From Bacillus sp. F19 (GTDB taxonomy: Bacteria > Bacillota > Bacilli > Bacillales > Bacillaceae): a stretch of DNA of 64,000 nucleotides. The stretch is from assembly GCA_023823795.1 (NCBI GenBank), contig CP085710.1, forward strand, positions 522,001 through 586,000, in the 5' to 3' direction. Both the position numbers and the translations under genes were made by a program. Below the pieces are notes generated by a model. That model ran no database searches. It saw nothing but the letters and a program-made list of their open reading frames with translations, and had not been told where the DNA came from. Below, piece after piece: positions 17,023 through 33,900 of this stretch. Every line of letters begins with the position of its first letter. Position 1 is the stretch's first letter.

Positions 17023-18444
17023 TTAATTTTGATTAAATATGACTAATTTTTGTTCCGTCATTTCCTCAATGGCGTACTTTACACCTTCCCGTCCAATTCC
17101 ACTTTCTTTTACTCCCCCATATGGCATATGGTCCAGACGGAACGTAGGGATATCATTTACTATAACGCCTCCTACGTGCAGCTTTTGCGAAGCCATTAAT
17201 GCCGTACGAATATTCTCTGTGTAAATACCCGCTTGCAATCCGTAGCGAGAATCATTGACAAGCTCTATTGCTTGATCAACAGTTGAGAATTTATTGATCA
17301 ATACGATAGGGGCAAACACTTCTTGGCAAGAAACTTTTTGGGACGGATCCACTTCCAATAAAACAGTTGGATGCAAAATATTTCCTTCCGATTTACCTCC
17401 TGTCGCCACTATTGCTCCTTTCTGCTTCGCTTCCTCAATCCATTCGAGGGATCGTTCTATGTCCCGGGGACTGATTAATGCAGAAACATCTGTCATCGGA
17501 TCAAGAGGATCTCCTAGTTTTAGCTTTTGAGTCGCTGCAACGAATTTTTCTGTAAATGTTTCATATAGTTCTTCATGAACATAAACCCGCTGAACGGAAA
17601 TACAGACTTGTCCTTGAAATGCAAACGCTCCGGTTACACAACGTGAAATGATTTTGTCAATATCAACGCCTTTGTCAATAATGACCGCCGCATTAGAACC
17701 TAATTCAAGGGTGACCTTTTTTAATCCGGCTTTATTCCGAATGTCAATGCCTACGGAGGGGCTTCCTGTAAAAGATATCTTTTGAATTCTTTCATCTGTC
17801 ACAAGCTTTTCACCTATTAATTTCCCGCTTCCTGTTACAACATTGAATGCTCCTGCCGGCAACCCGGCTTCCTGGAGTAACTCAGCAAGAAATAATGAGG
17901 ACAATGGTGTTTGTGCAGCCGGTTTTAAAACAACGGAATTGCCTGAAGCAAGTGCAGGTCCTACTTTATGTGCTACTAGGTTCATAGGAAAGTTAAAAGG
18001 TGTTATTGCCGCAATGACTCCTATTGGCTCCCGGACAGTATAGGCAACTCTTCCTTCTCCTCCTGGTGCAGCATCAACCGGTATCGTTTCTCCATGTATC
18101 CGTTTTGCTTCTTCAGCAGAAAATTTATATGTTTGAATCGTGCGATCAACTTCCCCTTTTGCAGTAGAAAGTGGTTTAGCTGCCTCCAGAGCAATTATTT
18201 CTGCCGCTTCATCTGATCTTTGTTCTAATAGATTTGCAAGATTCTCTAAAATCCTTGCACGCTTATAACTTGGCATATCAGCCATTGTTTTTCTGGCTTC
18301 ATAAGCAGCAGTCAACGCCATTTCTACTTCTGTAAGAGTTGCTGCAGGAACTTCTGCAATCACCTCTCCACTGTAAGGAGATAATAAAGGACTATAGCTT
18401 TCTGCATTTACCCACTCACCGTTAATAAATAAGTTTTTTTTCAT
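17023..18444 (-). CDS. Aldehyde dehydrogenase family protein, probable succinate-semialdehyde dehydrogenase
   Basis: A 473-residue NAD(P)-dependent aldehyde dehydrogenase. The catalytic cysteine lies in FQGQVCISVQR, the general-base glutamate in LELGSNAAVI, and the cofactor loop in ISFTGSPSVG; the C-terminal PYGGVKESGIGREG is typical. It is the second gene of an operon with a class III aminotransferase that is driven by a sigma-54 promoter. That pairing, and the adjacent lysine cluster which would end in 4-aminobutyrate, suggests oxidation of succinate semialdehyde to succinate (GabD role). Malonate or another semialdehyde is possible, because the family is broad. Confidence 0.85.
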   Translation of the reverse strand: MKKNLFINGEWVNAESYSPLLSPYSGEVIAEVPAATLTEVEMALTAAYEARKTMADMPSYKRARILENLANLLEQRSDEAAEIIALEAAKPLSTAKGEVDRTIQTYKFSAEEAKRIHGETIPVDAAPGGEGRVAYTVREPIGVIAAITPFNFPMNLVAHKVGPALASGNSVVLKPAAQTPLSSLFLAELLQEAGLPAGAFNVVTGSGKLIGEKLVTDERIQKISFTGSPSVGIDIRNKAGLKKVTLELGSNAAVIIDKGVDIDKIISRCVTGAFAFQGQVCISVQRVYVHEELYETFTEKFVAATQKLKLGDPLDPMTDVSALISPRDIERSLEWIEEAKQKGAIVATGGKSEGNILHPTVLLEVDPSQKVSCQEVFAPIVLINKFSTVDQAIELVNDSRYGLQAGIYTENIRTALMASQKLHVGGVIVNDIPTFRLDHMPYGGVKESGIGREGVKYAIEEMTEQKLVIFNQN

Positions 18445-18492
18445 AATGAATCTCCTCGCCTTGCATTATTTGTGTAGTAATAATTCTTGTGT

Positions 18493-19845
18493 TTACTTGG
18501 CTGCATAGTTTTCTGAAGCAAGATCTGCTTCGATAACTGAGATAGAATTGTTTAGAATCTCAATCATTTTCTTGATTTCGTCTTTATTAATCGTTAACGG
18601 CGGTGCAAATACTACTATATCTTGATCATCCAAGACGACTGATCTGCAAATAAGCCCTTGTTTTGCAGCTTCTAAAACAATTGCAGGAGACAGAGGGGCA
18701 GCGTAATGTTCTTTTGTTTTTGAATCTATGGCAATTTCAATACCTGCCATCAACCCAAGCCCTTTTACTTTACCGACTATTTTTTGGTCTTGCTGGATTC
18801 GGTATAGTCCTTTTAGCAGTTCCTGTCCCATTGCTTCAGCATTTTCTATTAAATGTTCCTGTTCAATAATCTCTAAATTTTTCAATGCAACCGCACAAGC
18901 CATTGGATGCCCGCTATACGTGTATCCATGCAGCAAAGTGCCCGTTGAGAGCTCCGTTAATTCCCGATGGATCTTTTCGGATATCATGACCCCTCCAAGC
19001 TGAGCATATCCGCTTGTGACACCTTTTGCAAAGCACATCATATCAGGTGCAACACCGTAATGATCCATTCCAAAGTACATTCCTGTTCGGCCAAATCCAG
19101 TTATCACTTCATCTGTAATAAATAAAACTCCATACTCATCGCAAATTTCACGTACTTCCTTAAAATAATTTTCCGGAGCTACGTGAATGCCCCCTGCTCC
19201 TTGTACAGGTTCTGCAATAAAAGCCGCAATCGTTTCAGGACCTTCTGCTGCAATCAATTCTCGTAAAGATTGAGAAGAAAAGTTGTCTGCGTACAGAAAA
19301 TCAGGAGCCAGTGAGTTCGTGAAATCCCGAAAAGCTTTCAGCCCAGTTGCACTTGTTGCCCCCATTGAGACTCCGTGATAGGATTTTGTTCTTGAAATAA
19401 TCTTTTTTCTTCCTGGCTGACCTTTTAGAATCCAGTAATGGCGTGCAAGTTTATAAGCTGTATCATTCGCCTCCGAACCGCCAGAAGTGAAGAAGGTTGC
19501 GCTTAAATCTCCAGGAGCTATTTGTGCAAGTTTTGCGGCCAATCGAATGGCAGGTTCGTTGCTATATGTGGCAAAACAGGAACTGAAACCCAGTTTTGAC
19601 ATCTGCTCCATCGCAATTTTGCCTAATTCCCCGCGCCCATGCCCTGCGTTTACATTCCAGAGAGATGACATACCATCAATGACTTCTTTTCCTGTTACAT
19701 CTTGAAGGTAGACTCCCTTTCCTTCTGTAAAAATAAAAGCAGGCCCCTGTTCTTGCTGCTGTTTAACTGGGGATGTTGGATGGATAAAATGTTTTTTATC
19801 TAACTCTCTTAATTCCTGGATTGTGTTTTCAGTATGTGTCATCAT
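18493..19845 (-). CDS. Class III omega-aminotransferase, probable 4-aminobutyrate transaminase
   Basis: A PLP enzyme of about 450 residues, fold type I. The cofactor contacts are TSGGSEANDTAY, the aromatic SYHG loop, the aspartate in FITDEVITGFGRTG and the Schiff-base lysine in MCFAKGVTSGYAQLGG. It resembles pyruvate-dependent omega-amino acid transaminases. I place the start at ATG 19845 (MMTHTEN), five bases after AAAGGG; an upstream GTG at 19851 would overlap that ribosome site. With the following aldehyde dehydrogenase and sigma-54 control it would convert 4-aminobutyrate to succinate semialdehyde. Beta-alanine or putrescine-derived substrates remain possible. Confidence 0.85.
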   Translation of the reverse strand: MMTHTENTIQELRELDKKHFIHPTSPVKQQQEQGPAFIFTEGKGVYLQDVTGKEVIDGMSSLWNVNAGHGRGELGKIAMEQMSKLGFSSCFATYSNEPAIRLAAKLAQIAPGDLSATFFTSGGSEANDTAYKLARHYWILKGQPGRKKIISRTKSYHGVSMGATSATGLKAFRDFTNSLAPDFLYADNFSSQSLRELIAAEGPETIAAFIAEPVQGAGGIHVAPENYFKEVREICDEYGVLFITDEVITGFGRTGMYFGMDHYGVAPDMMCFAKGVTSGYAQLGGVMISEKIHRELTELSTGTLLHGYTYSGHPMACAVALKNLEIIEQEHLIENAEAMGQELLKGLYRIQQDQKIVGKVKGLGLMAGIEIAIDSKTKEHYAAPLSPAIVLEAAKQGLICRSVVLDDQDIVVFAPPLTINKDEIKKMIEILNNSISVIEADLASENYAAK

Positions 19846-19893
19846 GAACACCCTTTCTTTTTGAATAAATAAATATGATCTTACCTATTTATT

Positions 19894-19911
19894 ATGCAAG
19901 ATTCGTGCCAA
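19894..19911 (-). promoter_or_regulatory. Sigma-54 promoter of the aminotransferase operon
   Basis: Read on the minus strand, TTGGCACGAATCTTGCAT is a full match to the -24/-12 consensus (TTGGCACG-N4-TTGCAT) with correct GG-GC spacing. It lies about 50 bases before the aminotransferase start. Confidence 0.92.
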
Positions 19912-19948
19912 CTAATTTTCCTAGAGTTAAGGCTGTTTTTTAGTTTAA

Positions 19949-19968
19949 TTGATTTAAAATTAAATCAA
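19949..19968. promoter_or_regulatory. Candidate enhancer site 1 of the sigma-54 activator
   Basis: A perfect 20-bp palindrome with arms TTGATTTAA and TTAAATCAA. It lies upstream of the sigma-54 promoter at 19894-19911 and upstream of the divergent activator gene at 20060, as expected for an activator site. Confidence 0.65.
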
Positions 19969-20009
19969 ATATGTGGTTTTTAATTTAATTATTGATTATT
20001 TTCTCTTTT

Positions 20010-20029
20010 TTGATTTATATTTTAATCAA
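20010..20029. promoter_or_regulatory. Candidate enhancer site 2 of the sigma-54 activator
   Basis: A second 20-bp palindrome with outer arms TTGATT and AATCAA, 61 bp from the first, close to six helical turns. It lies about 30 bases before the activator start, so the activator may also repress itself. Confidence 0.65.
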
Positions 20030-20059
20030 CATTTATAGACATAAAAGGAGGGGACCGTA

Positions 20060-21463
20060 TTGGAAGATGGAATGCTGGGGATGGAATTAAATAAAATTAT
20101 CGAAACATCGAATAATAACATTACAATTACTGATGAAAAAGGAATTATTTTACGATCTAATCGAGAACATTGGGCAATTTATGATATGCAGCCTGATACA
20201 TACATCGGTACATCGGTTTATCAATTAGAAAAAGAAGGGCTGCTTTCACCTTCTATCAATGCAATCGTTTTAAAGGAAAAAAAATTCACTCGTATTATGC
20301 AGCATACAAGAACAGGCCGAGTTGTCATGTCAACTGGCTATCCGATTTTCAATAAGGAAGGCCTCCTGGTTAGAGTGATCAGCTATAGTCAGGATCAGAC
20401 CGAAATATGGAAATTGCAGGAACAATACGAGGAATTACAACGCAAGATAAAGGGCTATCAGACAGAAGTCGAGGATTTAAGGGGAAAGGAACTTGGTCAT
20501 CATGCTTTTATCGCTAGAAGTAATCAAACACAGCAGATTTTAAAAACGATTCATAATGTCGCTAAAACCGATGCCACGATTCTTTTTTTAGGACCAACTG
20601 GGGTAGGGAAAAGTACGTTTGCACGCGCTCTTCATAATCAAAGCAACCGAAATAAAGAGCCATTTATTGAGGTGAATTGCAGCACAATCCCAGAAAGTTT
20701 GTTTGAATCAGAGATATTTGGATATGAACCAGGATCCTTTACAGGGGGAAACAAACAAGGCAAGCAGGGACTGATTGAACAAGCTGACAGCGGTACTCTT
20801 TTTTTAGATGAAATCGGGGAACTCCCCCTTGCTATGCAAGCTAAATTATTGAAAGTGCTTCAAGAAAAAAAGATAAAGCGCATCGGCGGAAAAAAAGAAA
20901 GACTTATTAACTTCCGGCTAATCGCAGCAACAAATCAGGATCTGGAGAAGATGGTAAATGAAGGAAAGTTTAGGTTAGATTTGTTTTACCGTTTAAATGT
21001 GATACCTATTCAAATTCCTTCATTACTTGAGCGTAAAGAAGATATACCAATCTTAATTCAGCATTACTTGCAGAAAACCAATGATAAATACCAGACAATA
21101 AAAAAATTACATCCCTCGACTTATGAAGTATTGACGCATTATGAATGGCCCGGGAATATACGGGAATTAGAAAATTTGATTGAACGGTTAATTCTTACCA
21201 TTGATGAACCCGCTATCTATCCCAAACACCTTCCCCTAGCCATCACAGGGCAAGTGGAACAGACGGAAGATTCCTCTTCCTCCGCAATTGAACAGGAATT
21301 AAGCGGGAAACAAGATCTTAAAAAGACGTTAGAAAAGATTGAAATACAATTGATTGCCAAAGCATATAAACAATGTAAAACGACATACGAAATGGCAGAT
21401 TATTTGGGAATCAGTCAACCTTCAGTCATCTATAAATTAAAGAAATATAAGGAACATTTTTGA
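20060..21463 (+). CDS. Sigma-54-dependent activator (PAS-AAA+-HTH), probable GabR-type
   Basis: A 467-residue enhancer-binding protein. An N-terminal PAS domain (about residues 10-115, ITITDEKGIILRSNREH) should sense a metabolite. A short coiled linker follows, then the AAA+ core with Walker A (GPTGVGKSTFA), Walker B (GTLFLDEIGELP) and the arginine-bearing FRLDLFYRLNV. The C-terminal Fis-type helix-turn-helix ends in MADYLGISQPSVIYKLKKY. The sigma-54 contact loop reads GSFTGG instead of the usual GAFTGA. Start is TTG at 20060 after AAAGGAGGGG. Divergent placement and the shared palindromes make it the likely activator of the aminotransferase/dehydrogenase operon. Confidence 0.9.
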   Translation: MEDGMLGMELNKIIETSNNNITITDEKGIILRSNREHWAIYDMQPDTYIGTSVYQLEKEGLLSPSINAIVLKEKKFTRIMQHTRTGRVVMSTGYPIFNKEGLLVRVISYSQDQTEIWKLQEQYEELQRKIKGYQTEVEDLRGKELGHHAFIARSNQTQQILKTIHNVAKTDATILFLGPTGVGKSTFARALHNQSNRNKEPFIEVNCSTIPESLFESEIFGYEPGSFTGGNKQGKQGLIEQADSGTLFLDEIGELPLAMQAKLLKVLQEKKIKRIGGKKERLINFRLIAATNQDLEKMVNEGKFRLDLFYRLNVIPIQIPSLLERKEDIPILIQHYLQKTNDKYQTIKKLHPSTYEVLTHYEWPGNIRELENLIERLILTIDEPAIYPKHLPLAITGQVEQTEDSSSSAIEQELSGKQDLKKTLEKIEIQLIAKAYKQCKTTYEMADYLGISQPSVIYKLKKYKEHF

Positions 21464-21480
21464 ATCATTAGGAAGAATCT

Positions 21481-21650
21481 CTGATATAAAAGAAATTTAT
21501 CACCTAATTTAATCTTTCCTTCGCGAACTCCTTTATCTAAAGCGAGAGGGATTGCAGCTGATGAGGTAATTCCGTCATCCACTAAACAATGTGTAGTCAT
21601 TCGGAAGGCCGCTTTTTTCGCCAATCAGCTTCATTGGCTGATACGAATTG
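21481..21650 (-). pseudogene. 3-oxoacyl-ACP synthase III (FabH-like) C-terminal relic
   Basis: On the minus strand one frame reads QPMKLIGEKSGLPNDYTLF and, after a frameshift near 21595, another reads DDGITSSAAIPLALDKG followed by VREGKIKLGDKFLL. Both match the C-terminal part of FabH-type condensing enzymes (Asn-Thr-Ser-Ser-Ala-x-Ile-Pro-Leu-Ala-Leu region, with Asn changed to Ile). The rest of the gene is missing. It is a dead fragment between two activator genes. Confidence 0.8.
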
Positions 21651-21666
21651 CTTGCCGGTCATTGCC

Positions 21667-21699
21667 AAAGCACTTGATATTATCTGAGTGCTTTTTTGT
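21667..21699 (+). terminator. Terminator downstream of the first sigma-54 activator
   Basis: AAAGCACT pairs with AGTGCTTT and runs into TTTTTT. The activator transcript would cross the FabH-like relic and end here. Confidence 0.82.
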
Positions 21700-21817
21700 T
21701 CGATCATTCTCGGAATTAGAATTTTCAGATTCATATAGATAAAGAGATAAATAATTCATATCCAAATGCTATAATTTACTGGTAATACCATCAATTACAA
21801 AGAGCGGAGATGAGGAA

Positions 21818-23269
21818 ATGAAATCTTTAGCAAACAAGTTTTCCACTCAATTTGAATGGATATTGAATGTGATTAATGTTGGTGTCCATATAGTTAATAA
21901 GGATGGAGATACCGTATTCTACAATGAAATGATGGCTCATATCGATGGGCTGAATCGTGAACAGGTGTTAGGAAAAAATATCTTTCAGCTGTATCCATCC
22001 TTAACGGACGAATCCAGTACGCTGTATTTGGCATTGGGAAAAGGCATAGAAACGAATGAGTCTATTCAAACCTATGTCAATTTAAAAGGGGAAAAAATAA
22101 CTTCTATCAATAGCACTTATTCTTTATACGAGGAAGGTAAAGTTATTGGGGCAGTGGAAATCGCCAAGGATATTACTAAGGTCATGAGCATGTACGATCA
22201 AATTGTGGATCTGCGTTCTCAGCTGGCCGAGACCCACAAGAAAAGCAAGTTCTTTGCAGGTACAGCCACTTATCATTTTAGTGATTTAATTGGGGACAGC
22301 CCTGCTTTTCAAGAAGCTATTTCATTGGCGAAAAAAGCGGCTCGTACACATTCTCCAGTAATGATTTATGGACCTACAGGAACAGGAAAAGAACTAATTG
22401 CCCAAAGTATACATAATGTAAGTGCTCGGCGAAATCAGCCATTCATTGCGCAAAATTGTGCTGCTGTTCCAAAGGAATTAATGGAGGGTCTGCTGTTTGG
22501 TACAACGAAAGGGGCTTTTACGGGAGCGGTGGACCGTCTGGGTATTTTTGAACAGGCAAGTGGCGGTACCCTGTTTCTTGATGAACTGAATAGTCTAGAC
22601 CTTGGTCTGCAGGCAAAATTGCTTCGAGTATTACAAGAAGGGGAAATACGCCGTGTTGGAGGATCGAAGGAACAGAAAATTAATGTAAAAATCATTGCTG
22701 CGATGAATATTTCTCCAGATGAGGCGTTAGAGCGGGGAATTATTCGCTCAGATTTATTTTTCCGTCTAAATGTTGTGACAATCCAAATGCCATCTCTACT
22801 GGAACGCAAAGAAGATATTCCTGAAATCGTAAATCACTTTATTCACAAATTCAATCGATCATTCGTTTCGGATGTACGAGGGATCAGCCGAAAAGCTATG
22901 CAACGGATGCTTCAATATCCATGGCCGGGGAACATTCGGGAATTGGGTCATGCTATAGAGTTAGCTTTTAACGTCATGGACGCGGGTGAAAAAACAATTG
23001 ATGAACATCATCTTCCTGCTTATTTATTCCCATCAGGAAAGTATTCCGCTTTAAATACGCAGAACCATCTTCCTCCATTAAAAAATGAGATTGATTTACC
23101 TGCTGTGCTGGAAGAAATAGAAAGGGATATGATTATAAATATGTTTGAGAAATGTAACGGGAATATCAGCAAAACAGCTGAGGCTCTCAATATAAAGAGA
23201 CAGGGTTTACAGTATAAGCTAAACAAATACGGTATCGAGAAAGTATATACCGGAAGAATAAGGGAATGA
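21818..23269 (+). CDS. Sigma-54-dependent activator, probable KamR-type
   Basis: A 483-residue enhancer-binding protein with an N-terminal PAS domain (about residues 10-125, VGVHIVNKDGDTVFYNEMM), a linker helix, the AAA+ core and a Fis-type HTH. Walker A is GPTGTGKELIA, the sigma-54 loop is the standard GAFTGA (TTKGAFTGAVDRLG), Walker B is GTLFLDELNSL, and the HTH ends in AEALNIKRQGLQYKLNKY. The ATG follows GCGGAGATGAGG. It lies directly upstream of the kamA operon and its sigma-54 promoter, the same arrangement as the kam locus reported for B. thuringiensis (from memory), so it is the likely lysine-responsive activator. Confidence 0.9.
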   Translation: MKSLANKFSTQFEWILNVINVGVHIVNKDGDTVFYNEMMAHIDGLNREQVLGKNIFQLYPSLTDESSTLYLALGKGIETNESIQTYVNLKGEKITSINSTYSLYEEGKVIGAVEIAKDITKVMSMYDQIVDLRSQLAETHKKSKFFAGTATYHFSDLIGDSPAFQEAISLAKKAARTHSPVMIYGPTGTGKELIAQSIHNVSARRNQPFIAQNCAAVPKELMEGLLFGTTKGAFTGAVDRLGIFEQASGGTLFLDELNSLDLGLQAKLLRVLQEGEIRRVGGSKEQKINVKIIAAMNISPDEALERGIIRSDLFFRLNVVTIQMPSLLERKEDIPEIVNHFIHKFNRSFVSDVRGISRKAMQRMLQYPWPGNIRELGHAIELAFNVMDAGEKTIDEHHLPAYLFPSGKYSALNTQNHLPPLKNEIDLPAVLEEIERDMIINMFEKCNGNISKTAEALNIKRQGLQYKLNKYGIEKVYTGRIRE

Positions 23270-23287
23270 AAATAATCTAGATAATTT

Positions 23288-23301: not shown

Positions 23302-23442
23302 TTTTGATGAGTCAAAAGTAAAATTGTAATAAGTGAGTAATGGAATATTCTTCGAGTCTGCTGCTATCCCGAGTGAAACTAACTAAAAATATTAATAAAT
23401 TTAACTTGGAGCAAATTATTTGGCTGCAAAACATCATGCGTA

Positions 23443-23498
23443 ACGCAAAATATCTTGCGTTTTTTAAAAAGAGAGAGGGCATACAGCCCTCTTTTTTC
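23443..23498 (+). terminator. Tandem terminators before the kamA promoter
   Basis: Two hairpins in a row: ACGCAA/TTGCGT followed by T residues (23443-23465), then GAGGGC/GCCCTC followed by six T residues (23472-23498). They end the activator transcript and insulate the sigma-54 promoter that starts 23 bases on. Confidence 0.75.
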
Positions 23499-23520
23499 TA
23501 TGTTTTCCTCGTTTTGTATG

Positions 23521-23537
23521 TTGGCATCATTCTTGCA
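23521..23537 (+). promoter_or_regulatory. Sigma-54 promoter of the kamA operon
   Basis: TTGGCATCATTCTTGCA has the invariant GG and GC at the right distance for -24/-12 recognition. Transcription would begin near 23548, about 45 bases before kamA. Confidence 0.9.
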
Positions 23538-23593: not shown

Positions 23594-25012
23594 ATGAGTT
23601 TGATGGAGATGGACTTAAAACGTAAAGAATACCTTGGTGGACGCAGACACTATAATGAAATTGAACTGTGGAAAGATGTAACGGAAGAGAAATGGAATGA
23701 TTGGCTCTGGCAATTAACAAATACAATTAAAACTCTGGACGATCTGAAAAAAGTTGTGAACTTGACACCGGATGAAGAAGAAGGGGTTCGAATTTCGACT
23801 CAAACAATTCCTTTAAATATTACGCCTTACTATGCATCCTTAATGAATCCGAATGATCCTCGCTGCCCGATTCGTTTACAGTCTGTACCGCTTTCGGCAG
23901 AAATGAACAAGACAAGATATGATTTGGAAGATCCGCTGCATGAGGATGAAGATTCCCCAGTGCCAGGTCTGACGCATCGTTATCCGGACCGCGTTCTATT
24001 TCTTGTCACGAACCAATGCTCTATGTATTGCCGTTATTGTACTCGCCGTCGCTTTTCTGGTCAGGTTGGCATGGGGGTTCCTAAGAAGCAATTAGACGCA
24101 GCGATTGAATATATTCGAAATACTCCAGAAGTGAGAGACGTTCTGATTTCAGGAGGAGATGGGCTGTTAATCAATGATAAGATTCTCGAATACGTATTAA
24201 GTAATTTACGTGCTATCCCACATGTGGAAATTATTCGGATTGGTACTCGTGCCCCGGTCGTTTTCCCGCAGAGGATTACAGAGAATTTATGCAATATTCT
24301 GAAAAAATATCATCCAATCTGGTTAAATACGCATTTCAATCATTCACTTGAACTGACGGAAGAAGCGAAAAAGGCATGTGATATGCTGTCGATGGCTGGA
24401 GTGCCGCTTGGTAATCAGGCTGTCATTCTTGCTGGGATTAACGATAGTGTTCATATCATGAAAAAGCTTATGCACGACTGTGTTAAAGCTAGAGTAAGAC
24501 CTTATTACATTTATCAATGTGATTTATCTGAAGGGATTGGCCATTTCCGTGCCCCGGTTTCTAAAGGACTGGAAATCATTGAAGCGCTTCGCGGCCATAC
24601 ATCAGGATATGCGGTGCCGACCTTTGTGGTAGACGCTCCTGGAGGAGGAGGAAAAATCGCCTTGACTCCTAATTACCTCCTTTCACAAAGTCCTGATAAA
24701 GTGGTCTTACGAAACTTTGAAGGAGTTATTACAAGCTATCCGGAGCCGAAGAACTACATTCCTGGAAGTGCAGATGCTTACTTTGATGAGGTATATGGTA
24801 CGGAAGAAAGAAAAGAAGCCGTGGGAATCGCTGCTCTCATGACAGACGAAAAATTCAATTTGGTACCAGAAGGCCTCCGCCGCCTTGACAAGAGAAAAGC
24901 GTATGAGAGTACTGATGAACATGCATCCTTAAAGGATCGCCGTGATAAACGGGATGAAATGAAAGAAAAATTGATGAAAGCTCAAGAAAAAAAGAATCAA
25001 CCGACGGTGTAG
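23594..25012 (+). CDS. kamA: Lysine 2,3-aminomutase
   Basis: KamA moves the alpha-amino group of L-lysine to carbon 3, giving beta-lysine. The 472-residue radical SAM enzyme has the cluster motif CSMYCRYC (Cys142, Cys146, Cys149), the DVLISGGDGL segment, and the PLP-binding lysine region PGGGGKIALTPNY. The charged C-terminal tail (KDRRDKRDEMKEK) is also seen in Bacillus homologues. The ATG follows AAGGAGG. It is the first gene of a sigma-54-controlled operon. A ferredoxin gene four positions on can supply its electron. Assignment is firm. Confidence 0.96.
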   Translation: MSLMEMDLKRKEYLGGRRHYNEIELWKDVTEEKWNDWLWQLTNTIKTLDDLKKVVNLTPDEEEGVRISTQTIPLNITPYYASLMNPNDPRCPIRLQSVPLSAEMNKTRYDLEDPLHEDEDSPVPGLTHRYPDRVLFLVTNQCSMYCRYCTRRRFSGQVGMGVPKKQLDAAIEYIRNTPEVRDVLISGGDGLLINDKILEYVLSNLRAIPHVEIIRIGTRAPVVFPQRITENLCNILKKYHPIWLNTHFNHSLELTEEAKKACDMLSMAGVPLGNQAVILAGINDSVHIMKKLMHDCVKARVRPYYIYQCDLSEGIGHFRAPVSKGLEIIEALRGHTSGYAVPTFVVDAPGGGGKIALTPNYLLSQSPDKVVLRNFEGVITSYPEPKNYIPGSADAYFDEVYGTEERKEAVGIAALMTDEKFNLVPEGLRRLDKRKAYESTDEHASLKDRRDKRDEMKEKLMKAQEKKNQPTV

Positions 25013-25314: not shown

Positions 25315-25319
25315 AATGC

Positions 25320-26252: not shown

Positions 26253-26495
<243 letters not shown>

Positions 26496-26825
26496 ACCCG
26501 GTTTCAAAGATTCAAATTTGCCATTTTTTTTCATTTATTTAATAGAATTTTTCCAATAGATTTAGGGAATTTGGACGGTCCACTCCTTACACCTCATTTC
26601 ACCCTTGATATTAACGAATAGCGACCCTGAACTTAATAGATCATAATTTATGGTATTACCAGGAACTTGCTTCTGAAACATATTGTACGAATGTACCGAT
26701 TGCAGGGAATGGACAGTGGAAATCTAAATTGTTGTTCCTTTTATATATTCAAATTAATAGGTTAACTGATTCATAGAAATAGAAAAATGAGTAGTGGGCA
26801 AGAAACTTAAAAAAGGAGAGATGAA
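26496..26825 (+). other. 330-bp gap inside the kam operon
   Basis: No gene could be supported here. A frame on the plus strand is open from about 26618 to 26776 (it includes LWYYQELASETYC) but has no start codon or ribosome site. No sigma-54 promoter with correct spacing and no terminator hairpin were found. It may be a decayed gene or an untranslated leader for the second half of the operon. Confidence 0.4.
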
Positions 26826-28193
26826 ATGAAGCGGAGTCATTTGATTAAGCCTATTCTAGATTATAACTATCCCACCGTCTCTCATGGGAATGGAATATAT
26901 CTTTATGACATGGATGGTAATCAATACATCGACGGATCATCAGGTGCGGTTACAGCAAGTATTGGTCATGGAGTATTAGAGGTTGTTGATGCCATGATGG
27001 TGCAGGCAAGCAAAGTTTCTTTTGCATATAGATCTCATTTCACAAGTGAAGCCGCAGAGACATTAGCAAAAAAGTTAAGTGAGTTAGCTCCAGGAGACTT
27101 AAATTGGACGTTTTTTGTAAACAGCGGATCTGAAGCAACGGAAACGGCGATGAAGATAGCGATTCAACATTGGCAAGAAAAAGGATATGAGCGGAAAAAT
27201 CGCATCGTCTCCCGCTGGACGAGTTATCACGGGATTACGATGGGTGCTTTATCAATGTCCGGTCATGTGTTAAGAAGAAAACGTTTTGTTCCGTTATTAG
27301 AGGATTTTCCTGGTATATCTGCTCCGTATTGTTATCGATGTCCTTATAATAGTGAACCTTCTAGCTGCAAGCTGCAGTGTGCAAATGAATTGGAGACGGC
27401 CATTCAAAGAATTGGATCTGAGAATATTGCCGCATTCATTGCCGAACCAATTATTGGGGCATCCGCTGGTGCTGTTACACCGCCTGACGGATATTATCAA
27501 AGGATTAAGGAAATATGCGAGCGTTACGACATTCTATTTATCGCTGATGAAGTTATGACAGGAATCGGACGTACGGGAAAAATGTTTGCCATGGAACACT
27601 GGGGCGTTACCCCAGATATCATTGCATTGGGTAAAGGAATGAGCGCTGGCTATACTCCGATGGCTGCCACTTTGGTTAGTGATCGTGTTATGGAACCCAT
27701 TTTAAAAGGCTCAAAATCAATCATGGCTGGACACACTTATAGCGCAAATCCACTATCTGCTGCTGTTTCCTTAGAAGTTCTTAATTACATTGAGCGAATG
27801 AATTTGGTTCAGGAAGCGGAAGAGAAAGGACAATACCTATTGCAGCAATTACATGGACTTGCTGAGAGATTTGACATCATTGGTGATGTGCGGGGAAAAG
27901 GGCTTCTTCTGGGACTTGAGTTTGTTTCCAATAGAATTTCAAAAAAATCATTCCGCTTGCAAAATGGCATTACCTCAAGGATCGTAAATAAAGCATTTGA
28001 GAAGGGATTGTTGATCTATCCCGCTTCTGGTGCTATCGAGGGAATCGAGGGCGATGCGGTTATTATTTCTCCGCCGCTGGTTATTTCAAATGAAGAAATT
28101 GACCGTCTTGTAAAGCTGCTGGAAGCATCAATTGAGGAATTACAGCATGAATTGCACGCGGAAGGCCTGATAGAGAACATGCAGGCTATTTAG
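26826..28193 (+). CDS. yodT: Class III aminotransferase (YodT), probable N-acetyl-beta-lysine transaminase
   Basis: A 455-residue PLP aminotransferase. Key parts: VNSGSEATETAMK (phosphate contact), SYHGITMGALS, IADEVMTGIGRTG (pyridine nitrogen aspartate) and the Schiff-base lysine in IALGKGMSAGYTP. A cysteine cluster (YCYRCPYNSEPSSCKLQC, about residues 163-180) is notable and may bind metal. In the proposed pathway it removes the 3-amino group of 6-N-acetyl-beta-lysine to give 6-acetamido-3-oxohexanoate. The ATG follows AAAGGAGAG. The next gene begins ten bases after its stop. Confidence 0.88.
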   Translation: MKRSHLIKPILDYNYPTVSHGNGIYLYDMDGNQYIDGSSGAVTASIGHGVLEVVDAMMVQASKVSFAYRSHFTSEAAETLAKKLSELAPGDLNWTFFVNSGSEATETAMKIAIQHWQEKGYERKNRIVSRWTSYHGITMGALSMSGHVLRRKRFVPLLEDFPGISAPYCYRCPYNSEPSSCKLQCANELETAIQRIGSENIAAFIAEPIIGASAGAVTPPDGYYQRIKEICERYDILFIADEVMTGIGRTGKMFAMEHWGVTPDIIALGKGMSAGYTPMAATLVSDRVMEPILKGSKSIMAGHTYSANPLSAAVSLEVLNYIERMNLVQEAEEKGQYLLQQLHGLAERFDIIGDVRGKGLLLGLEFVSNRISKKSFRLQNGITSRIVNKAFEKGLLIYPASGAIEGIEGDAVIISPPLVISNEEIDRLVKLLEASIEELQHELHAEGLIENMQAI

Positions 28194-28203
28194 GAGGAAC
28201 GAT

Positions 28204-28902
28204 ATGAAGCAAGTCATTGCGAAAAAAAACAAAATTGTGACCATAGAAGAAGCACTCAAGCATATCAACGATGGATGTACACTCATGTATGGAGGGTTTG
28301 GGGGAGTGGGGACTCCGCCAACACTCATACAGGGCATCCTGAACAAGGGCGTTAAGGAACTAACTTTGATTGGCAATGATGCAGGATTCCCTGATATCGG
28401 AATTGGCCGGCTAGTGTCTGATGAAAGAGCCAAAAAGGTCATCGCCTCTCATATCGGATCCAATCCTAATGCGGGTCGGCTCATGAATGAAGGAAAGCTG
28501 CAAGTGGAATTCTCTCCGCAAGGGACATTAGCTGAAAGGATTCGTGCAGGCGGAGTAGGCTTGGGCGGAATTTTTGTCGATATCGGGATTGGCACGATAG
28601 CTGAAGAAGGCAAGGACAAAATCGTAATCGGCGGAAAGGAATATTTGATCGAAACGGCTTTAACCTCAGAAGTGAGTGTTGTCTATGCCAAAAAGGCAGA
28701 TCCGCTTGGAAATCTGGTGTATGACAAGAGTGCCCGCAACTTCAATCCGCTGGTAGCGATGGCAGGAGCCTTTACCATTGCAGAAGTCGAAGAAGTTGTT
28801 CCGGCAGGCGAACTGGATCCGGAGTGTATTGCCACGCCAGGTATTTATGTAGATATGGTAATTCCAACAGAAGGGGTGAATTGGAAATGGGCATGGGAGT
28901 AG
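28204..28902 (+). CDS. yodS: CoA-transferase subunit A (YodS)
   Basis: A 232-residue alpha subunit of a class I 3-oxoacid CoA-transferase (ScoA/AtoD family). The glycine-rich CoA loop (YGGFGGVGTPPTLIQ) is intact, as is GKEYLIETAL. Together with the B subunit it should move CoA from acetyl-CoA or succinyl-CoA to 6-acetamido-3-oxohexanoate, making a thiolase substrate. It starts after TAGGAGGAACGAT. Its 3' end overlaps the yodR start by 16 bases, which couples the two subunits in translation. Confidence 0.9.
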   Translation: MKQVIAKKNKIVTIEEALKHINDGCTLMYGGFGGVGTPPTLIQGILNKGVKELTLIGNDAGFPDIGIGRLVSDERAKKVIASHIGSNPNAGRLMNEGKLQVEFSPQGTLAERIRAGGVGLGGIFVDIGIGTIAEEGKDKIVIGGKEYLIETALTSEVSVVYAKKADPLGNLVYDKSARNFNPLVAMAGAFTIAEVEEVVPAGELDPECIATPGIYVDMVIPTEGVNWKWAWE

Positions 28903-29549
28903 ATGTACGAATTCGCATCGCCAAACGCGCTGCCAAGGAAATCCATGATGGATTAATTGTCAATTTAGGTATTGGCATTCCTACCTTAGTTGCCGATCAT
29001 TTACCTCAAGATATCCATGTGCTGTTCCATGCGGAAAACGGTGTCCTTGGTACAGGTCCCACTCCGAATCCGGGGCAAGAAGATCCTGCTCTCTGTAACG
29101 CAGGAGGGTTCCCGATTACGACCGTAACAGGGGCTTCTTACTTTGACAGTGCAACGGCATTTGGCATGATCCGTCGAGGATACATCGACATTACCATCCT
29201 TGGTGCATTGGAAGTTAGTGAAAAAGGGGATTTGGCCAACTGGATTGTCCCAGGCAAACGGGTACCGGGAATGGGCGGAGCAATGGAGCTGGCCCAAAAA
29301 GCAAAAAAGGTGATTGTCTTGATGAATCACGTGAATAAGCAGGGTGAATCAAAGATATTAAAGGAATGCACGCTTCCTTTAACCGCAAGACAAAGTGTAG
29401 ATTTAATTATTACCGATATGGCTGTCATGGAGGTTAAAAAAGAGGGATTGGTGCTGAAGGAAGTTATGGCACCTTATACAGTCGATGAAGTGATTGCGAA
29501 TACAGAGGCGACGCTTAAAATCCCGGCTGTTGTCAACAGCATTGAATAG
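28887..29549 (+). CDS. yodR: CoA-transferase subunit B (YodR)
   Basis: A 220-residue beta subunit that carries the catalytic glutamate in FHAENGVLGTGP, the residue that forms the glutamyl-CoA intermediate. The N-terminal INLGIGIPTL-like stretch (VNLGIGIPTLVADHL) and the later VPGKRVPGMGGAMEL are typical of ScoB/AtoA proteins. I chose the ATG at 28887 (MGMGVDVRIR), which lies after AAGGGGTGAA and gives the usual N-terminus; a start at 28824 would add 21 unlikely residues. It overlaps yodS by 16 bases. Confidence 0.9.
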   Translation: MGMGVDVRIRIAKRAAKEIHDGLIVNLGIGIPTLVADHLPQDIHVLFHAENGVLGTGPTPNPGQEDPALCNAGGFPITTVTGASYFDSATAFGMIRRGYIDITILGALEVSEKGDLANWIVPGKRVPGMGGAMELAQKAKKVIVLMNHVNKQGESKILKECTLPLTARQSVDLIITDMAVMEVKKEGLVLKEVMAPYTVDEVIANTEATLKIPAVVNSIE

Positions 29550-29567
29550 CTAAGAGGAGGCATAAGC

Positions 29568-30749
29568 ATGAATGAGGTTGTCATCGTTGCTGGAGCGCGG
29601 ACGGCAGTCGGATCCTTTGGGAAGTCACTCCGGAATGTTAAAGCTGCCGAATTGGGCCGTCAAGTATTGGAAGGCTTAATGGAAAAGTCTGGCTTAGACA
29701 AAGAAAAGGTCGATGAAGTGATCTTTGGACATGGCTATGTCCATGGAGGCGGTCTTAACTCTGCCCGGATTTCATCGCAGATGGCGGGTTTCCCGCAAAA
29801 TATCCCTGGTCACATTGTAATCAAAGCATGCGGATCAGGTTTAAAGGCCATTACCAGTGCGGCTTTAACTATCGCTGCTGGTCAAGAAGAAGTGATCATC
29901 GCCGGCGGAGTGGAGAGCATGAGCAATGTGCCATATATCGTGAAAAATAGATGGGGCGGTAAATTTGGAAACGTAACGATGGAGGATGCTCTGCTGGCAG
30001 ATGGATTAATATGCTCCTTAGAAAATGAGCATATGGGAATAACAGCTGAACGTCTGGCTGAACAATACGGTATCCGTCGCGAGGAACAGGATCAATTTGC
30101 TTATCAAAGCCACAAGAAGGCCTGGAAAGCTGTAGCAGAAGGCCGCTTTGATCAAGAAATTATTCCGCTTAAAATCAAGGATCGAAAAGGGCTTCATGTC
30201 TTCAGCCAAGACGAAGGAGTTCGTGAGGACATTCATCTGGATCAACTTGCCGGCCTTCCTGCAGTATTCAAAAATGAAGGAACCATTACGGCAGGTAATG
30301 CGTGTCCCATGAATGATGGAGCAGCAGCTGTACTATTAATGTCCAAGCAGCAGGCAGAAGAAACGGGATTAAAAACGCTCTTGAAAATCAAGGCTTTCGC
30401 CAGTGCAGGTGTTGAACCGGGAGTTATGGGGATCGGACCCGTACCAGCGACTCGAAAAGCATTGGCAAAAGCAGGTCTATTGTTAGAGGATATCGGCCTG
30501 GTTGAACTTAATGAAGCCTTTGCTGCCCAAGCACTTGCTGTGATCAAGGAGTTAGATTTGAATCCGGATATCGTCAATGTCAATGGAGGGGCAATTGCAC
30601 TTGGTCACCCTGTAGGGGCAACAGGTGCAAAATTGACAGTCACACTGATGCATGAAATGCTGCGTTCTCAGGTTAAGTACGGAATGGTAACGTTGTGTAT
30701 GGCAGGCGGAATGGGACTTTCAGTTATCTATGAGAATATGTGTATATAA
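29568..30749 (+). CDS. Thiolase (acetyl-CoA C-acyltransferase)
   Basis: A 393-residue thiolase with the three catalytic residues in place: the nucleophile cysteine in VIKACGSGLKAI (about residue 88), the histidine in GGAIALGHPVGATG and the second cysteine in TLCMAGGMG. In the proposed route it cleaves 6-acetamido-3-oxohexanoyl-CoA with CoA into acetyl-CoA and 4-acetamidobutyryl-CoA. As I recall, the B. subtilis kamA-yodPQRST operon has no thiolase, so its presence here completes a step that is otherwise left to other genes. It starts after AGAGGAGG. Confidence 0.9.
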   Translation: MNEVVIVAGARTAVGSFGKSLRNVKAAELGRQVLEGLMEKSGLDKEKVDEVIFGHGYVHGGGLNSARISSQMAGFPQNIPGHIVIKACGSGLKAITSAALTIAAGQEEVIIAGGVESMSNVPYIVKNRWGGKFGNVTMEDALLADGLICSLENEHMGITAERLAEQYGIRREEQDQFAYQSHKKAWKAVAEGRFDQEIIPLKIKDRKGLHVFSQDEGVREDIHLDQLAGLPAVFKNEGTITAGNACPMNDGAAAVLLMSKQQAEETGLKTLLKIKAFASAGVEPGVMGIGPVPATRKALAKAGLLLEDIGLVELNEAFAAQALAVIKELDLNPDIVNVNGGAIALGHPVGATGAKLTVTLMHEMLRSQVKYGMVTLCMAGGMGLSVIYENMCI

Positions 30750-30760
30750 GGAGGATAAAA

Positions 30761-32032
30761 GTGCCAGATATTAAAAAACGCATTCACCAATGGATCAAGG
30801 ATCATCGGGAAGAAGGAACGGACTTATTGCAACGATTGGTACAAGCCCCCAGTACGCAAGGGAATGAAGCCGCGGCGCAGGCTATCGTCGTCCAAAAACT
30901 GCAGGAAATGGGTCTGCAGGTTGATATTTGGGAGCCTGACGGTGTGGAATTGAAAAAGCATTCCTATTTCTATTCTCCTCGCAGCGATTTTTCAAACAGC
31001 CCTAATGTGGCGGGAATTATGAAAGGATCCGGAGGAGGCCGCTCCATTATCTTGAACGGACACATCGATGTGGTTCCGGATGGTGATCGGGAACAGTGGG
31101 ATGACGATCCATACAGCGGAGCTATTAGGAATGGAAAAATGTTTGGACGTGGCGTAACAGATATGAAAGGAGGCAATGTATCCCTTATTCTGGCAATGCA
31201 GGCGTTACAGGAAAGTGGCATCCAGTTAAAGGGAGATGTGATTTTTCAAAGTGTGATTGAAGAAGAAAGCGGCGGAGCAGGAACTTTAGCAGCCATTTTG
31301 AAGGGATACAAAGCCGATGCTGCCCTTATCCCTGAACCGACAAATATGAGGATTTTTCCCAAACAGCAGGGTTCGATGTGGTTCCGTATTCTGGTAAAAG
31401 GCCGGTCAGCCCATGGTGGAACAAGGTATGAAGGAATTAGCGCCATTGAAAAGAGTATGACCGTAATAAATCACATTCGTGCTCTGGAAGAAAAGCGAAA
31501 TGCACGCATCAGTGATCCGCTTTATCAGAACACACCTATCCCGATTCCAATCAATGTAGGCGTCATTGAAGGCGGTAATTGGCCTTCCTCCGTTCCCGAC
31601 CTGGTGAAAATTGAAGGAAGAATGGGTGTTGCGCCGGAGGAAACGATGGAGCAGGCGAAGAACGAAATGGCTGAATGGCTGTTCCAGATAAAAGAAGTTG
31701 ACGAATGGTTTAAGGATCATGCTCCTGTTTTAGAATGGTTCGGAGCACGCTGGGTTCCAGGGGCAATTGACACAGAACATGAACTGATGAATACGCTCGT
31801 CCATCAATATCGGCAAGTTGCTGGACAGGATCCGGTCATTGAAGCTTCTCCGTGGGGGACTGATGGAGGATTGCTGACTCATGTCGGTGAAACGCCTGCA
31901 ATTGTTTTTGGTCCTGGAGCAACAGAGGTTGCCCATTATCCAAATGAATACATCTTACTAGATAATGTGTTTACGACAGCGGAGATTATTGCCCTTACTT
32001 TAATTCAATGGTGTGGTATTGAAGAGGAGTAG
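30761..32032 (+). CDS. yodQ: M20-family deacylase (YodQ), probable 4-acetamidobutyrate deacetylase
   Basis: A 423-residue zinc amidohydrolase of the ArgE/DapE/CPG2 type. The metal ligands are recognisable: NGHIDVVPDG (His, Asp), GRGVTDMKGG (bridging Asp), EEESGGAGTL (catalytic and metal Glu) and PEPTN. The start is the GTG at 30761 after AAGGAGG; an upstream in-frame ATG at 30740 lies in the thiolase coding end and lacks a site. It would remove the acetyl group of 4-acetamidobutyrate to release 4-aminobutyrate. The substrate is inferred from pathway logic. Confidence 0.88.
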   Translation: MPDIKKRIHQWIKDHREEGTDLLQRLVQAPSTQGNEAAAQAIVVQKLQEMGLQVDIWEPDGVELKKHSYFYSPRSDFSNSPNVAGIMKGSGGGRSIILNGHIDVVPDGDREQWDDDPYSGAIRNGKMFGRGVTDMKGGNVSLILAMQALQESGIQLKGDVIFQSVIEEESGGAGTLAAILKGYKADAALIPEPTNMRIFPKQQGSMWFRILVKGRSAHGGTRYEGISAIEKSMTVINHIRALEEKRNARISDPLYQNTPIPIPINVGVIEGGNWPSSVPDLVKIEGRMGVAPEETMEQAKNEMAEWLFQIKEVDEWFKDHAPVLEWFGARWVPGAIDTEHELMNTLVHQYRQVAGQDPVIEASPWGTDGGLLTHVGETPAIVFGPGATEVAHYPNEYILLDNVFTTAEIIALTLIQWCGIEEE

Positions 32033-32442
32033 AAATCGATTTACGAATGATGTTAGTCGAAAAAAGTAAACGGGACAAACGAAACCGTAAATTAGGAGTT
32101 GCCTGCTGGAACAATGATTATTGAAATTAACAAGAATCGATTAATTCAAGTAGGGAGTGAGGAATGTCATACCAATTGGACGAGACATTGAAAGAAATTG
32201 AAGATCAACCCTTTTTGATTTTGATTTACATCCGACGGATAGAAAAAAATATAGTTATGAGATTTGATGTCTAAGCCCCGTTTCCTTAAAAATCCAGTAA
32301 AGTAAAGTTTCCGTTTTGGCAGTGGAACGAATCAGGTTCTTAAGTTAGAATAGGATATGGACTCTACTATCTGCTGTTAAGACAATTCTCTTTTATTATT
32401 TCTGAAAATTTAAAATTCAAATGAATTGTAGGTGGGAACCAA
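32033..32442 (+). other. 410-bp gap before the lysine permease gene
   Basis: No intact gene. A 35-codon frame at 32164 (MSYQLDETLKEIEDQP) has a fair ribosome site but then ends in poor sequence, and a neighbouring frame reads FDFDLHPTDRKKYSYEI. The two together look like one coding region broken by a frameshift, but I do not recognise the family. No promoter with good -10/-35 spacing and no terminator stood out. Confidence 0.35.
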
Positions 32443-33900
32443 ATGGACATGAATCTCATTGAAAATCAAGAACCGACAGTTAAAAGAAAATTGAAAGCAA
32501 GGCATATGTCTATGATCGCAATTGGAGGTTCTATCGGAACTGGCTTATTTTTGGCAAGTGGTGCAACCATCCAAAGTGCAGGACCTGGCGGATCTCTCAC
32601 TGCATATGCATGCATAGGAATTATGGTTTATTTTCTTATGACCAGCTTGGGGGAAATGGCGACATATATGCCTGTATCTGGATCCTTTTCTACCTATGCT
32701 ACACGCTTTGTAGATCCCGCATTTGGTTTTGCACTTGGCTGGAATTATTGGTTTAATTGGGCAGTCACCCTTGCAGTGGAAATAGCTGCGGCAGCTATCA
32801 TTATGAAATTCTGGCTGCCTGAAGTGCCAAGCATTATTTGGAGTGCATTGTTCCTTGGACTCATCTTTATTCTGAACGCTCTATCCATTAGAAGTTATGG
32901 TGAATCAGAATATTGGTTTGCCCTTATAAAAGTCGTGGCCATCATTGTTTTTATCATTATTGGATTATTGACAATCTTGGGGATTTTTGGCGGAGAAATG
33001 ATTGGATTTAAAAACTTTACTACGGGTGAAGCTCCTTTCAAGGGAGGATTTTTATCGATCATCAGTATCTTTCTTATCGCTGGATTTTCATTCCAAGGTA
33101 CAGAACTAGTTGGTATTGCTGCTGGAGAAAGTGAGAATCCTGAAAAAAATGTTCCAAATGCGATTCGCCAAGTATTTTGGCGCATCTTATTGTTTTACAT
33201 CGGAGCCATTTTAATACTTGGTTTGTTAATTCCATATACGAGTCCAAGTTTATTAAGCGGGGATTTAGAAAACATTTCTGTAAGCCCTTTCACGCTCGTT
33301 TTTGAACGGGCAGGACTTGCGTTCGCGGCTTCTGTCATGAATGCGGTTGTTTTAACATCCTTACTATCAGCAGGGAACTCTGGGCTTTATGCATCAACTA
33401 GGATGTTATGGTCGATGGCAAAAGATAATCAGGCTCCAAAGTTTCTAGCAAAAGTTAACCACAGGGGAATCCCGATGAATGCTTTGATAATCACGACATT
33501 AATTGGAGGGCTGGCTTTTTTAACGTCTGTTTTTGGGGATCATGTATTTACATGGCTATTAAATGCTTCAGGATTAACGGGATTCATTGCTTGGATTGGA
33601 ATTGCCGTTAGCCATTATCGTTTTAGACGTGCGTACGTAGCACAGGGCGGTGACTTAAACGAATTAAAATACAAAGCAAAATGGTTCCCGCTCGGTCCGA
33701 TTCTTTCATTTATCCTTTGCATAGTTGTCATTGCAGGACAGAATTACGAGGCGTATTTAAACGGCAGTATTGACTGGTACGGGGTCGCAGTCTCCTACAT
33801 TGGTTTACCATTGTTTCTAGCGATATGGTTAGGGTACAAGGTTTTTCATAAGACCAAAATAATTTCATTGAAAGACTGTCATTTTGAAAAATCAATGTAG
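32443..33900 (+). CDS. Amino acid permease, LysP-like
   Basis: A 485-residue APC-family permease with about twelve membrane segments. The AAT-subfamily hallmarks are clear: KARHMSMIAIGGSIGTGLF at the N-terminus, the GWNYWFNWAVTLAVE segment, and FSFQGTELVGIAAGESENP in the core helix. It most resembles LysP-type lysine permeases. It is placed at the end of the lysine-degradation cluster, which supports lysine as substrate. The ATG follows GTAGGTGGG. It ends in a basic and polar tail and is closed by a terminator 50 bases on. Confidence 0.85.
   Translation: MDMNLIENQEPTVKRKLKARHMSMIAIGGSIGTGLFLASGATIQSAGPGGSLTAYACIGIMVYFLMTSLGEMATYMPVSGSFSTYATRFVDPAFGFALGWNYWFNWAVTLAVEIAAAAIIMKFWLPEVPSIIWSALFLGLIFILNALSIRSYGESEYWFALIKVVAIIVFIIIGLLTILGIFGGEMIGFKNFTTGEAPFKGGFLSIISIFLIAGFSFQGTELVGIAAGESENPEKNVPNAIRQVFWRILLFYIGAILILGLLIPYTSPSLLSGDLENISVSPFTLVFERAGLAFAASVMNAVVLTSLLSAGNSGLYASTRMLWSMAKDNQAPKFLAKVNHRGIPMNALIITTLIGGLAFLTSVFGDHVFTWLLNASGLTGFIAWIGIAVSHYRFRRAYVAQGGDLNELKYKAKWFPLGPILSFILCIVVIAGQNYEAYLNGSIDWYGVAVSYIGLPLFLAIWLGYKVFHKTKIISLKDCHFEKSM

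Follow-up and report, generated by a model that had tools for sequence, protein, structure and literature searches.

A predicted sigma-54-controlled locus for lysine breakdown through N6-acetyl-beta-lysine in Bacillus sp. F19

Gene content of the locus

We analyzed a stretch of 64,000 nucleotides from Bacillus sp. F19 (contig CP085710.1, positions 522,001 to 586,000; here called the window), in which a 17-kb gene set at positions 17023-33900 is probably a sigma-54-controlled regulon for the catabolism of lysine through N6-acetyl-beta-lysine and 4-aminobutyrate (GABA) to acetate and succinate. The source genome (G000) comprises 5.59 Mb in two contigs. Every gene of this set that had been named by the first-pass annotation, a reading of the DNA letters, corresponds to an intact open reading frame at the expected position in the list of such frames for the window. 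Window proteins were scanned with NCBIfam and Pfam profiles, for which scores are quoted below as bits/curated cut-off. Relatives of the locus were sought in a genome collection using an alignment of AblB; of 340 confirmed hits the best 80 were kept (named loci), and 40 more regions from genomes of the window's family (fetched loci) brought the set to 120 related loci. Because these loci are interrelated, counts over them cannot be treated as independent, and one region occurs twice, as L060 and L166, which alone among all pairs have identical ablB DNA.

The first gene of the plus-strand operon encodes KamA, lysine 2,3-aminomutase (23594-25012), which scored above TIGR03820 (638.4/525.4), the lysine model, and fell short of the aminomutase models for glutamate (477/650) and arginine (404.5/600). 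Over residues 23-434 it was aligned with the solved clostridial lysine 2,3-aminomutase 2A5H, placing C142, C146, C149, K354, D310 and D347 opposite C125, C129, C132, K337, D293 and D330 of 2A5H, which we take to be the cluster cysteines of the CxxxCxxC motif, the pyridoxal phosphate lysine (K337) and the aspartate pair (D293 and D330) that binds the distal amino group of the lysine substrate. Judged by this alignment, KamA retains the predicted lysine-selecting residues. Next come a YokU-like small protein (25048-25314, plus strand), an open reading frame with no NCBIfam match at E 1e-20 and with relatives in 72/80 named and 30/40 fetched loci, and AblB, beta-lysine N6-acetyltransferase (25375-26235, plus strand; TIGR03827, 285.2/205.1). 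There is reportedly also work on YodP producing N-acetyl-beta-lysine. A 4Fe-4S ferredoxin (26265-26495, plus strand; PF13370, 64/24.5), a possible electron donor of KamA, is kept in nine of the ten Peribacillus-type loci (L087-L096, from Peribacillus and unplaced Bacillus sp.) and is absent from all other named loci (9/80 in total). Between the ferredoxin gene and yodT lies a gap of 330 bases (26496-26825), in which no promoter-like or terminator-like site was listed; two relatives have shorter gaps there, of 13 (L090) and 138 bases (L087).

The core catabolic genes, by which we mean those of YodT, both coenzyme A (CoA)-transferase subunits and YodQ, follow on the same strand. YodT (26826-28193; NF005375, 756.7/535) is a proposed N6-acetyl-beta-lysine transaminase. 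The CoA-transferase consists of subunit A (28204-28902; TIGR02429, 225/128.5), whose closest solved relative is the acetoacetate:butyrate/acetate CoA-transferase 8k9h, and subunit B (about 28887-29549; TIGR02428, 314.2/243.55). A thiolase (29568-30749; TIGR01930, a broad subfamily, 472/240.55), proposed to cleave 6-acetamido-3-oxohexanoyl-CoA, precedes YodQ (about 30761-32032; NF005373, 726.8/428, a model named only "peptidase"), an M20 metallohydrolase proposed to deacetylate 4-acetamidobutyrate, whose closest solved relative is 3pfo, a putative acetylornithine deacetylase. The thiolase and CoA-transferase models describe broad families and leave the substrate unfixed. Three Paenibacillus tyrfis loci have a thiolase 77-79% identical to that of the window, likewise placed between the transferase genes and yodQ, and further thiolases of G000, which lie beside other CoA-transferase pairs, share 47-52% with it. 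A LysP-like amino acid permease (32443-33900, plus strand; NF008094, 750.5/735) stands behind YodQ, as it does in 9/10 Peribacillus-type loci. The genes of the six enzymes named at first pass (KamA, AblB, YodT, CoA-transferase, thiolase and YodQ) are all present, each product scoring over a curated NCBIfam cut-off. The further statement that the permease and two sigma-54 activators complete the set held for these three genes and overlooked the YokU-like protein, the ferredoxin and two sigma-54 promoters.

Two related loci carry damaged frames. In L049 (genome G006), a window-type locus, the yodT frame is broken near residue 90, possibly by a sequencing error, and in L094 kamR, kamA, yodT, thiolase and yodQ each match in two pieces, the draft genome probably containing frame errors.

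On the minus strand lie a class III aminotransferase (AT1; 18493-19851; PF00202, 345.6 bits), a proposed GABA transaminase outside the GabT subfamily, and its partner aldehyde dehydrogenase (ALDH; 17023-18444; PF00171, 549 bits), a proposed succinic semialdehyde dehydrogenase (SSADH). AT1 fell under the cut-off for each of the 25 NCBIfam models among the matches listed; it is not classed as a GabT, only proposed to act like one. The window ALDH is 59-68% identical to aligned ALDHs of kam clusters from its own genus and Paenibacillus, and 73-74% to two ALDHs from aminotransferase-ALDH pairs of Peribacillus-type genomes. Its fourth-best solved relative is ALDH21, in which R121 and R457 are presumably the carboxylate-binding arginines; the window ALDH has R101 and R436 opposite them, yet both are kept in the lactaldehyde dehydrogenase 3pqa, and we therefore rejected these arginines, as unspecific, as proof of SSADH function. 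ALDH21 itself is described as an NADP-dependent SSADH (PMC7823795; this and the other sources given by PMC number are cited from excerpts). A bacterial nitric oxide synthase oxygenase gene (15662-16750, plus strand; PF02898, 556 bits) adjoins the locus, and L048 and L049 have the same gene at their edge.

Regulatory features and related clusters

The aminotransferase-ALDH unit and the kamA operon point away from each other, and each adjoins an activator of its own. The GabR-like sigma-54 activator (20060-21463, plus strand; PF00158, 228.8 bits; PAS_9 22.3, under the cut-off of 27) is divergent from AT1, and the KamR-like one (21818-23269, plus strand; PF00158, 209 bits) has a PAS domain (PAS_9 35.1, over that cut-off). 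Exact matches to TGGCAYN5TTGCW number only two in the 64 kb (0.31 expected by chance; as many as two turned up in 3 of 100 shuffled sequences), and they coincide with the predicted sigma-54 promoters of the aminotransferase-ALDH unit (19895-19911, minus strand; kept in L048 and L049) and of the kamA operon (23521-23537, plus strand). A candidate activator site is formed by two 21-nucleotide inverted-repeat arms (19949-19969 and 20009-20029), which are 86% complementary and, being A+T-rich, may have arisen by chance; a candidate KamR site is formed by tandem dyads 5' of kamA (23426-23461, with an inverted repeat at 23442-23461), which by eye are kept in L048 and L049 and partly in L087 and L089. 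The co-occurrence of two -24/-12 promoters with two AAA+ activators (PF00158) points to a predicted sigma-54-controlled regulon with enhancer-binding activators. A scan for sigma-70-type promoters gave no excess (33 sites versus 44.8 expected), and terminator-like sites numbered 15 versus 13.8. The GabR-like gene encodes GSFTGG at 20732-20749 instead of the usual GAFTGA, which the KamR-like activator has, and the noncoding stretch between both activators (21500-21800) by eye resembles remnants of a lost gene.

The same promoter type recurs in the related loci. Their 2.36 Mb hold 138 exact sigma-54 sites, against a chance expectation of about 11 by rough scaling from the window value, and 132 of them lie within 400 bases 5' of a same-strand cluster gene (kamA 82, yokU 28, ablB 12, yodT 6 and AT1 4). 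Counted by locus, 82 of the 107 that hold kamA have an exact site ahead of it. A KamR-like relative occurs in 68/80 named and 22/40 fetched loci.

Within the window's family, AblB (E 1e-3) and KamA (E 1e-80) are each found in 76 of 81 genomes, and the same five lack both. G000 holds two kam loci, one at 2.85 Mb that is common to 8/8 genus members and the window locus, which is found in 3/8. The closest loci outside the genus are of Peribacillus type (AblB 73-85%, KamA 94-96%); the window DNA matches L087 at 87-91% over three blocks (4.8, 5.3 and 1.5 kb) and its own second locus at no more than 74%. The simplest reading of these identities is horizontal transfer. Peribacillus-type loci also share the gene order of the window, namely KamR, KamA, YokU, AblB, ferredoxin, YodT, CoA-transferase, thiolase (7/10), YodQ and LysP, and similar clusters occur in Paenibacillus, Fictibacillus and others. 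In L066-L073, ablB, yodT, transferase and yodQ stand together and kamA apart; the idea that these loci represent a different pathway was rejected, since kamA was found elsewhere in those genomes. In L067, the only member of this group that was annotated, purine synthesis genes up to purD precede ablB, and a PucR-type regulator adjoins.

In counting further genes in the 120 loci we required at least 55% identity for ALDH and AT1, at least 45% for GabT and at least 60% for thiolase. All four core genes are present in 71 of the 80 named loci, which had been found by AblB, and in 39/40 fetched loci, KamA being present in 74/80 named loci. GabT belongs to the cluster in 39/120 loci (36/80 named and 3/40 fetched), ALDH of the window kind in 20/80 named loci, each time with GabT, and in 10/40 fetched loci, and AT1 relatives in 5/40 fetched loci. 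Behind the 112 yodQ matches, the next same-strand gene is GabT in 36 cases, ALDH in 8 and AT1 in 3, with no query gene in 43. GabT takes this place in Paenibacillus, Fictibacillus, Anaerobacillus, Pseudalkalibacillus and genus g4. In g3 and the window's genus the position is filled by ALDH or AT1: 8/8 second loci of the window's genus have an ALDH of the window kind directly behind yodQ, and the gene behind yodQ in three g3 loci (L059, L061 and L074) is 65-67% identical to AT1. Three of the 80 named loci (L111, L127 and L129), all from Paenibacillus tyrfis, combine the core genes with thiolase, GabT and ALDH.

All 39 cluster GabTs match both TIGR00700 and PRK06918 with E-values of 1e-140 or lower. 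The three that were compared with the cut-offs all pass that of TIGR00700 at 506.65 (627.6, 595.1 and 576.4), and against the stricter PRK06918 cut-off of 676 the first passes (690.2) and two fail (675.8 and 610.9). Ten of the 39 genomes were searched for further copies (E 1e-120): in 8/10 the cluster GabT is the genome's single GabT, the other two genomes having 2 and 3. If a genome of 3.5-8 Mb holds just one copy, chance would place it within a given stretch of 20.8 kb less than once per hundred genomes. In G000 itself no GabT exceeds the TIGR00700 cut-off (best 375.6/506.65), and the same is true of G001, G003, G004 and G007, while G002, G005 and G006 each have one. The lack of a GabT over the cut-off in G000 leaves a vacancy that the window AT1 could fill. 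Taken together, gene context and family membership from outside the window support the predicted GABA step.

In a search of ten genomes (E 1e-120), AT1 relatives (66-67%) were found in 6/6 Peribacillus-type genomes and 0/4 others. In all six the aminotransferase is paired with an ALDH (73-74% to that of the window), has a sigma-54 site in front and lies elsewhere in the genome than the kam locus. The neighbour in the one pair tested (L181) is rpoN (TIGR02395, 437/277), that is, sigma-54 itself, and in L181-L186 another aldehyde dehydrogenase lies near the pair, behind a second sigma-54 site. Apparent in-frame stops in the Peribacillus-type aminotransferases were dismissed, being located upstream of the likely start, with frames open through the gene.

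The proposed route and its alternatives

In the proposed route, LysP would bring lysine into the cell, KamA would shift its amino group to C3, perhaps with electrons supplied by the ferredoxin, and AblB would acetylate the far amino group, an acetyl shield that would also block ring closure of later intermediates. YodT would transaminate C3 to give 6-acetamido-3-oxohexanoate, onto which the CoA-transferase would move CoA from 4-acetamidobutyryl-CoA, and the thiolase would cleave the ester formed to acetyl-CoA and 4-acetamidobutyryl-CoA; because the latter would be the CoA donor for the next round, 4-acetamidobutyrate would be freed without a ligase or thioesterase. YodQ would then deacetylate 4-acetamidobutyrate to GABA, and the divergent aminotransferase and ALDH would carry GABA to succinate, with KamR and the GabR-like activator turning on each half separately. 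We infer the step order and every substrate, including those of YodT, YodRS, the thiolase and YodQ. With the transferase computed in its self-donor form, the eight steps are element-balanced, converting lysine + 2 oxoglutarate + 2 H2O to acetate + succinate + 2 glutamate + 2 H, and neutral for acetyl-CoA and CoA: the thiolase gives back the acetyl-CoA that AblB spends and takes up the CoA that AblB frees. The first-pass annotation had found no dedicated gene for the release of CoA from 4-acetamidobutyryl-CoA and had suggested that the CoA-transferase itself could do it. This suggestion is consistent with the exact balance, which needs no ligase or thioesterase, and with the kinship of the A subunit to 8k9h; the release would be no gap if the transferase accepts that ester, which is a substituted butyryl-CoA.

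Several observations weigh against this reading, and the first of them concern the thiolase, which is rare: (i) it is present in 11/80 named loci (10 with the core) and 2/40 fetched loci; (ii) it is missing in 3/10 Peribacillus-type loci having the other core genes; and (iii) the second kam locus of G000 is without it. Most loci thus have none, and there either the step differs or a thiolase encoded elsewhere in the genome must be shared. The same genes could be wired in another way, with acetyl-CoA or succinyl-CoA as the CoA donor and with YodQ deacetylating the CoA ester or an earlier intermediate; the solved CoA-transferase relatives are named acetate or succinyl-CoA transferases, and none of the sequence comparisons made here tells the donors apart. 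Such wiring would, however, require a thioesterase or ligase to free 4-acetamidobutyrate, and none was recognized among the cluster genes, whereas the self-donor version balances without either. We regard a rewired scheme as possible, though somewhat unlikely.

A second group of observations concerns the GABA step. The aminotransferase and ALDH of the window could belong to another pathway (e.g., that of beta-alanine, putrescine or another omega-amino acid) and adjoin the kam operon by chance, for they lie on the opposite strand with their own activator and promoter, and the corresponding pair is placed apart in the six Peribacillus-type genomes. AT1 fails the GabT model TIGR00700 (215.3/506.65) and has the amine transaminase 6fyq as its closest solved relative, and ALDH fails both the SSADH model TIGR01780 (391.4/646.35) and its own best model (554/650). 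Furthermore, G006 holds both a true GabT and an AT1-type aminotransferase, 44/80 named loci show no GabT, and in the ten Peribacillus-type loci no ALDH, GabT or AT1 passed the filters within 10 kb. Against a chance neighbourhood, which we think unlikely, stands the recurrence, described above, of the same type of ALDH behind yodQ in all eight second loci of the genus and together with GabT in a quarter of the named loci, and of AT1 relatives behind yodQ in g3. The earlier claim that these two enzymes carry GABA on to succinate is supported by the conserved linkage of GabT, ALDH and AT1 to yodQ, with the limit that the window's own pair does not reach the GabT and SSADH cut-offs.

The remaining observations concern the purpose and control of the locus. 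N-acetyl-beta-lysine is an osmolyte of methanogens and has been reported also from Bacillus cereus CECT 148 (cited in PMC4685198), and the locus could be one in which KamA and AblB make N6-acetyl-beta-lysine for salt stress and the other genes merely recycle it afterwards. The four core genes are not all nearby in 9/80 named loci, and L097, L116, L119, L122, L126 and L132 have only kamA, yokU and ablB (5/6 with kamR), with L122, L126 and L132 ending early, so that further genes may lie further off. On the other side, the core genes and GabT are as widespread as given above, the window continues with degradation genes and a lysine permease behind yodQ, PAS-domain activators and sigma-54 sites are in keeping with control by a metabolite, and no Rfam match was found in 13000-38000; an osmolyte locus appears quite improbable to us. 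In addition, no exact sigma-54 site precedes kamA in 25/107 loci, including 8/10 Peribacillus-type loci, in which one base is changed, and L075-L086; genus g2, assumed here to be Bacillus in the narrow sense, includes L079-L086 and also L066-L073, which lack kamA in the cluster. B. thuringiensis HD73, despite its kam locus, could not use lysine as a nitrogen source (PMC4428206).

To the fullest form of the proposed route we give roughly even chances: a complete, ATP-free conversion of lysine to acetate and succinate with a self-feeding CoA loop, in which the acetyl shield would be repaid by the thiolase, GabT would serve lysine breakdown first in many Paenibacillus and Fictibacillus, and the Bacillus kamA-yod cluster would be a trimmed form. 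If the route is true, it would represent a further lysine catabolic pathway, in which an acetyl shield replaces the second aminomutase of anaerobes and lysine is joined to GABA, and the presence of GabT in these operons would be explained. Each enzyme of the little-understood kamA-yod genes, which are widespread among Bacillus relatives, would receive a named substrate and predicted labelled products.

Comparison with known systems

Each enzyme family and the kamA-yod cluster are known; what appears to be new is the proposed lysine catabolism by way of beta-lysine that combines an acetyl shield with a CoA loop and an exit through GABA. The B. subtilis kamA-yod cluster, which we take to consist of kamA, yodP, yodQ, yodR, yodS and yodT, shares its core enzyme families with the window, to which the thiolase, permease, ferredoxin and aminotransferase-ALDH pair are added. 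The promoters differ as well, being of sigma-54 type in the window, whereas B. subtilis KamA and YodT are listed under SigE (PMC6522883). In the excerpts considered, KamA alone is described as characterized for Bacillus (the B. subtilis enzyme makes L-beta-lysine in vitro), and the same source, a 2019 review, states that its physiological function is still to be determined and tentatively ties YodT to biotin (PMC6522883). Elsewhere, beta-lysine is called the first metabolite in Bacillus lysine degradation (PMC6957869), and a transcription study of the B. cereus group interprets the induction of kamA as indicating lysine catabolism (PMC2654142). No earlier proposal of a route to GABA was found in the excerpts of the literature searched, which did not cover subscription literature.

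The closest regulatory parallel is B. thuringiensis, in which KamR and GabR are sigma-54 activators for lysine and GABA genes (PMC4428206) and GabR responds to GABA and succinic semialdehyde (PMC4279683). Strain HD73 (KamR, GabR and SigL) resembles the window in having PAS-type sigma-54 activators by kamA and gabT and the same promoter type (PMC4428206), and GabR binds 21-bp inverted repeats 5' of gabT (PMC4279683), where the window has its 21-nucleotide arms in a like place. By locus number (HD73_0366 and HD73_2540), however, the kam and gab units of HD73 are far apart, whereas those of the window are adjacent and divergent.

The archaeal abl genes likewise encode a lysine 2,3-aminomutase and a beta-lysine acetyltransferase, with the product stored as an osmolyte (PMC4685198). 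Unlike them, the window continues into degradation genes. In the acetyl-protected degradation of lysine or putrescine in yeast and animals, the acetyl shield is likewise removed late to leave an omega-amino acid, by way of 5- or 4-acetamido acids; that route begins with alpha-lysine or a diamine and is not known to use an aminomutase, CoA-transferase or thiolase. The lysine fermentation of Clostridium and Fusobacterium likewise starts with lysine 2,3-aminomutase and has CoA-transferase and thiolase chemistry later (PMC3149608), but relies on KamDE as a second aminomutase and on Kce for cleavage, and yields acetate and butyrate. No match to the Kce family was found in G000, the control being positive in 1/14 genomes, nor to lysine 5,6-aminomutase alpha (PF09043), for which the control was silent in all 14 genomes, so that we give this absence no weight. 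Compared with that fermentation, acetylation in the window route would replace the second aminomutase, and the products would be acetate and succinate.

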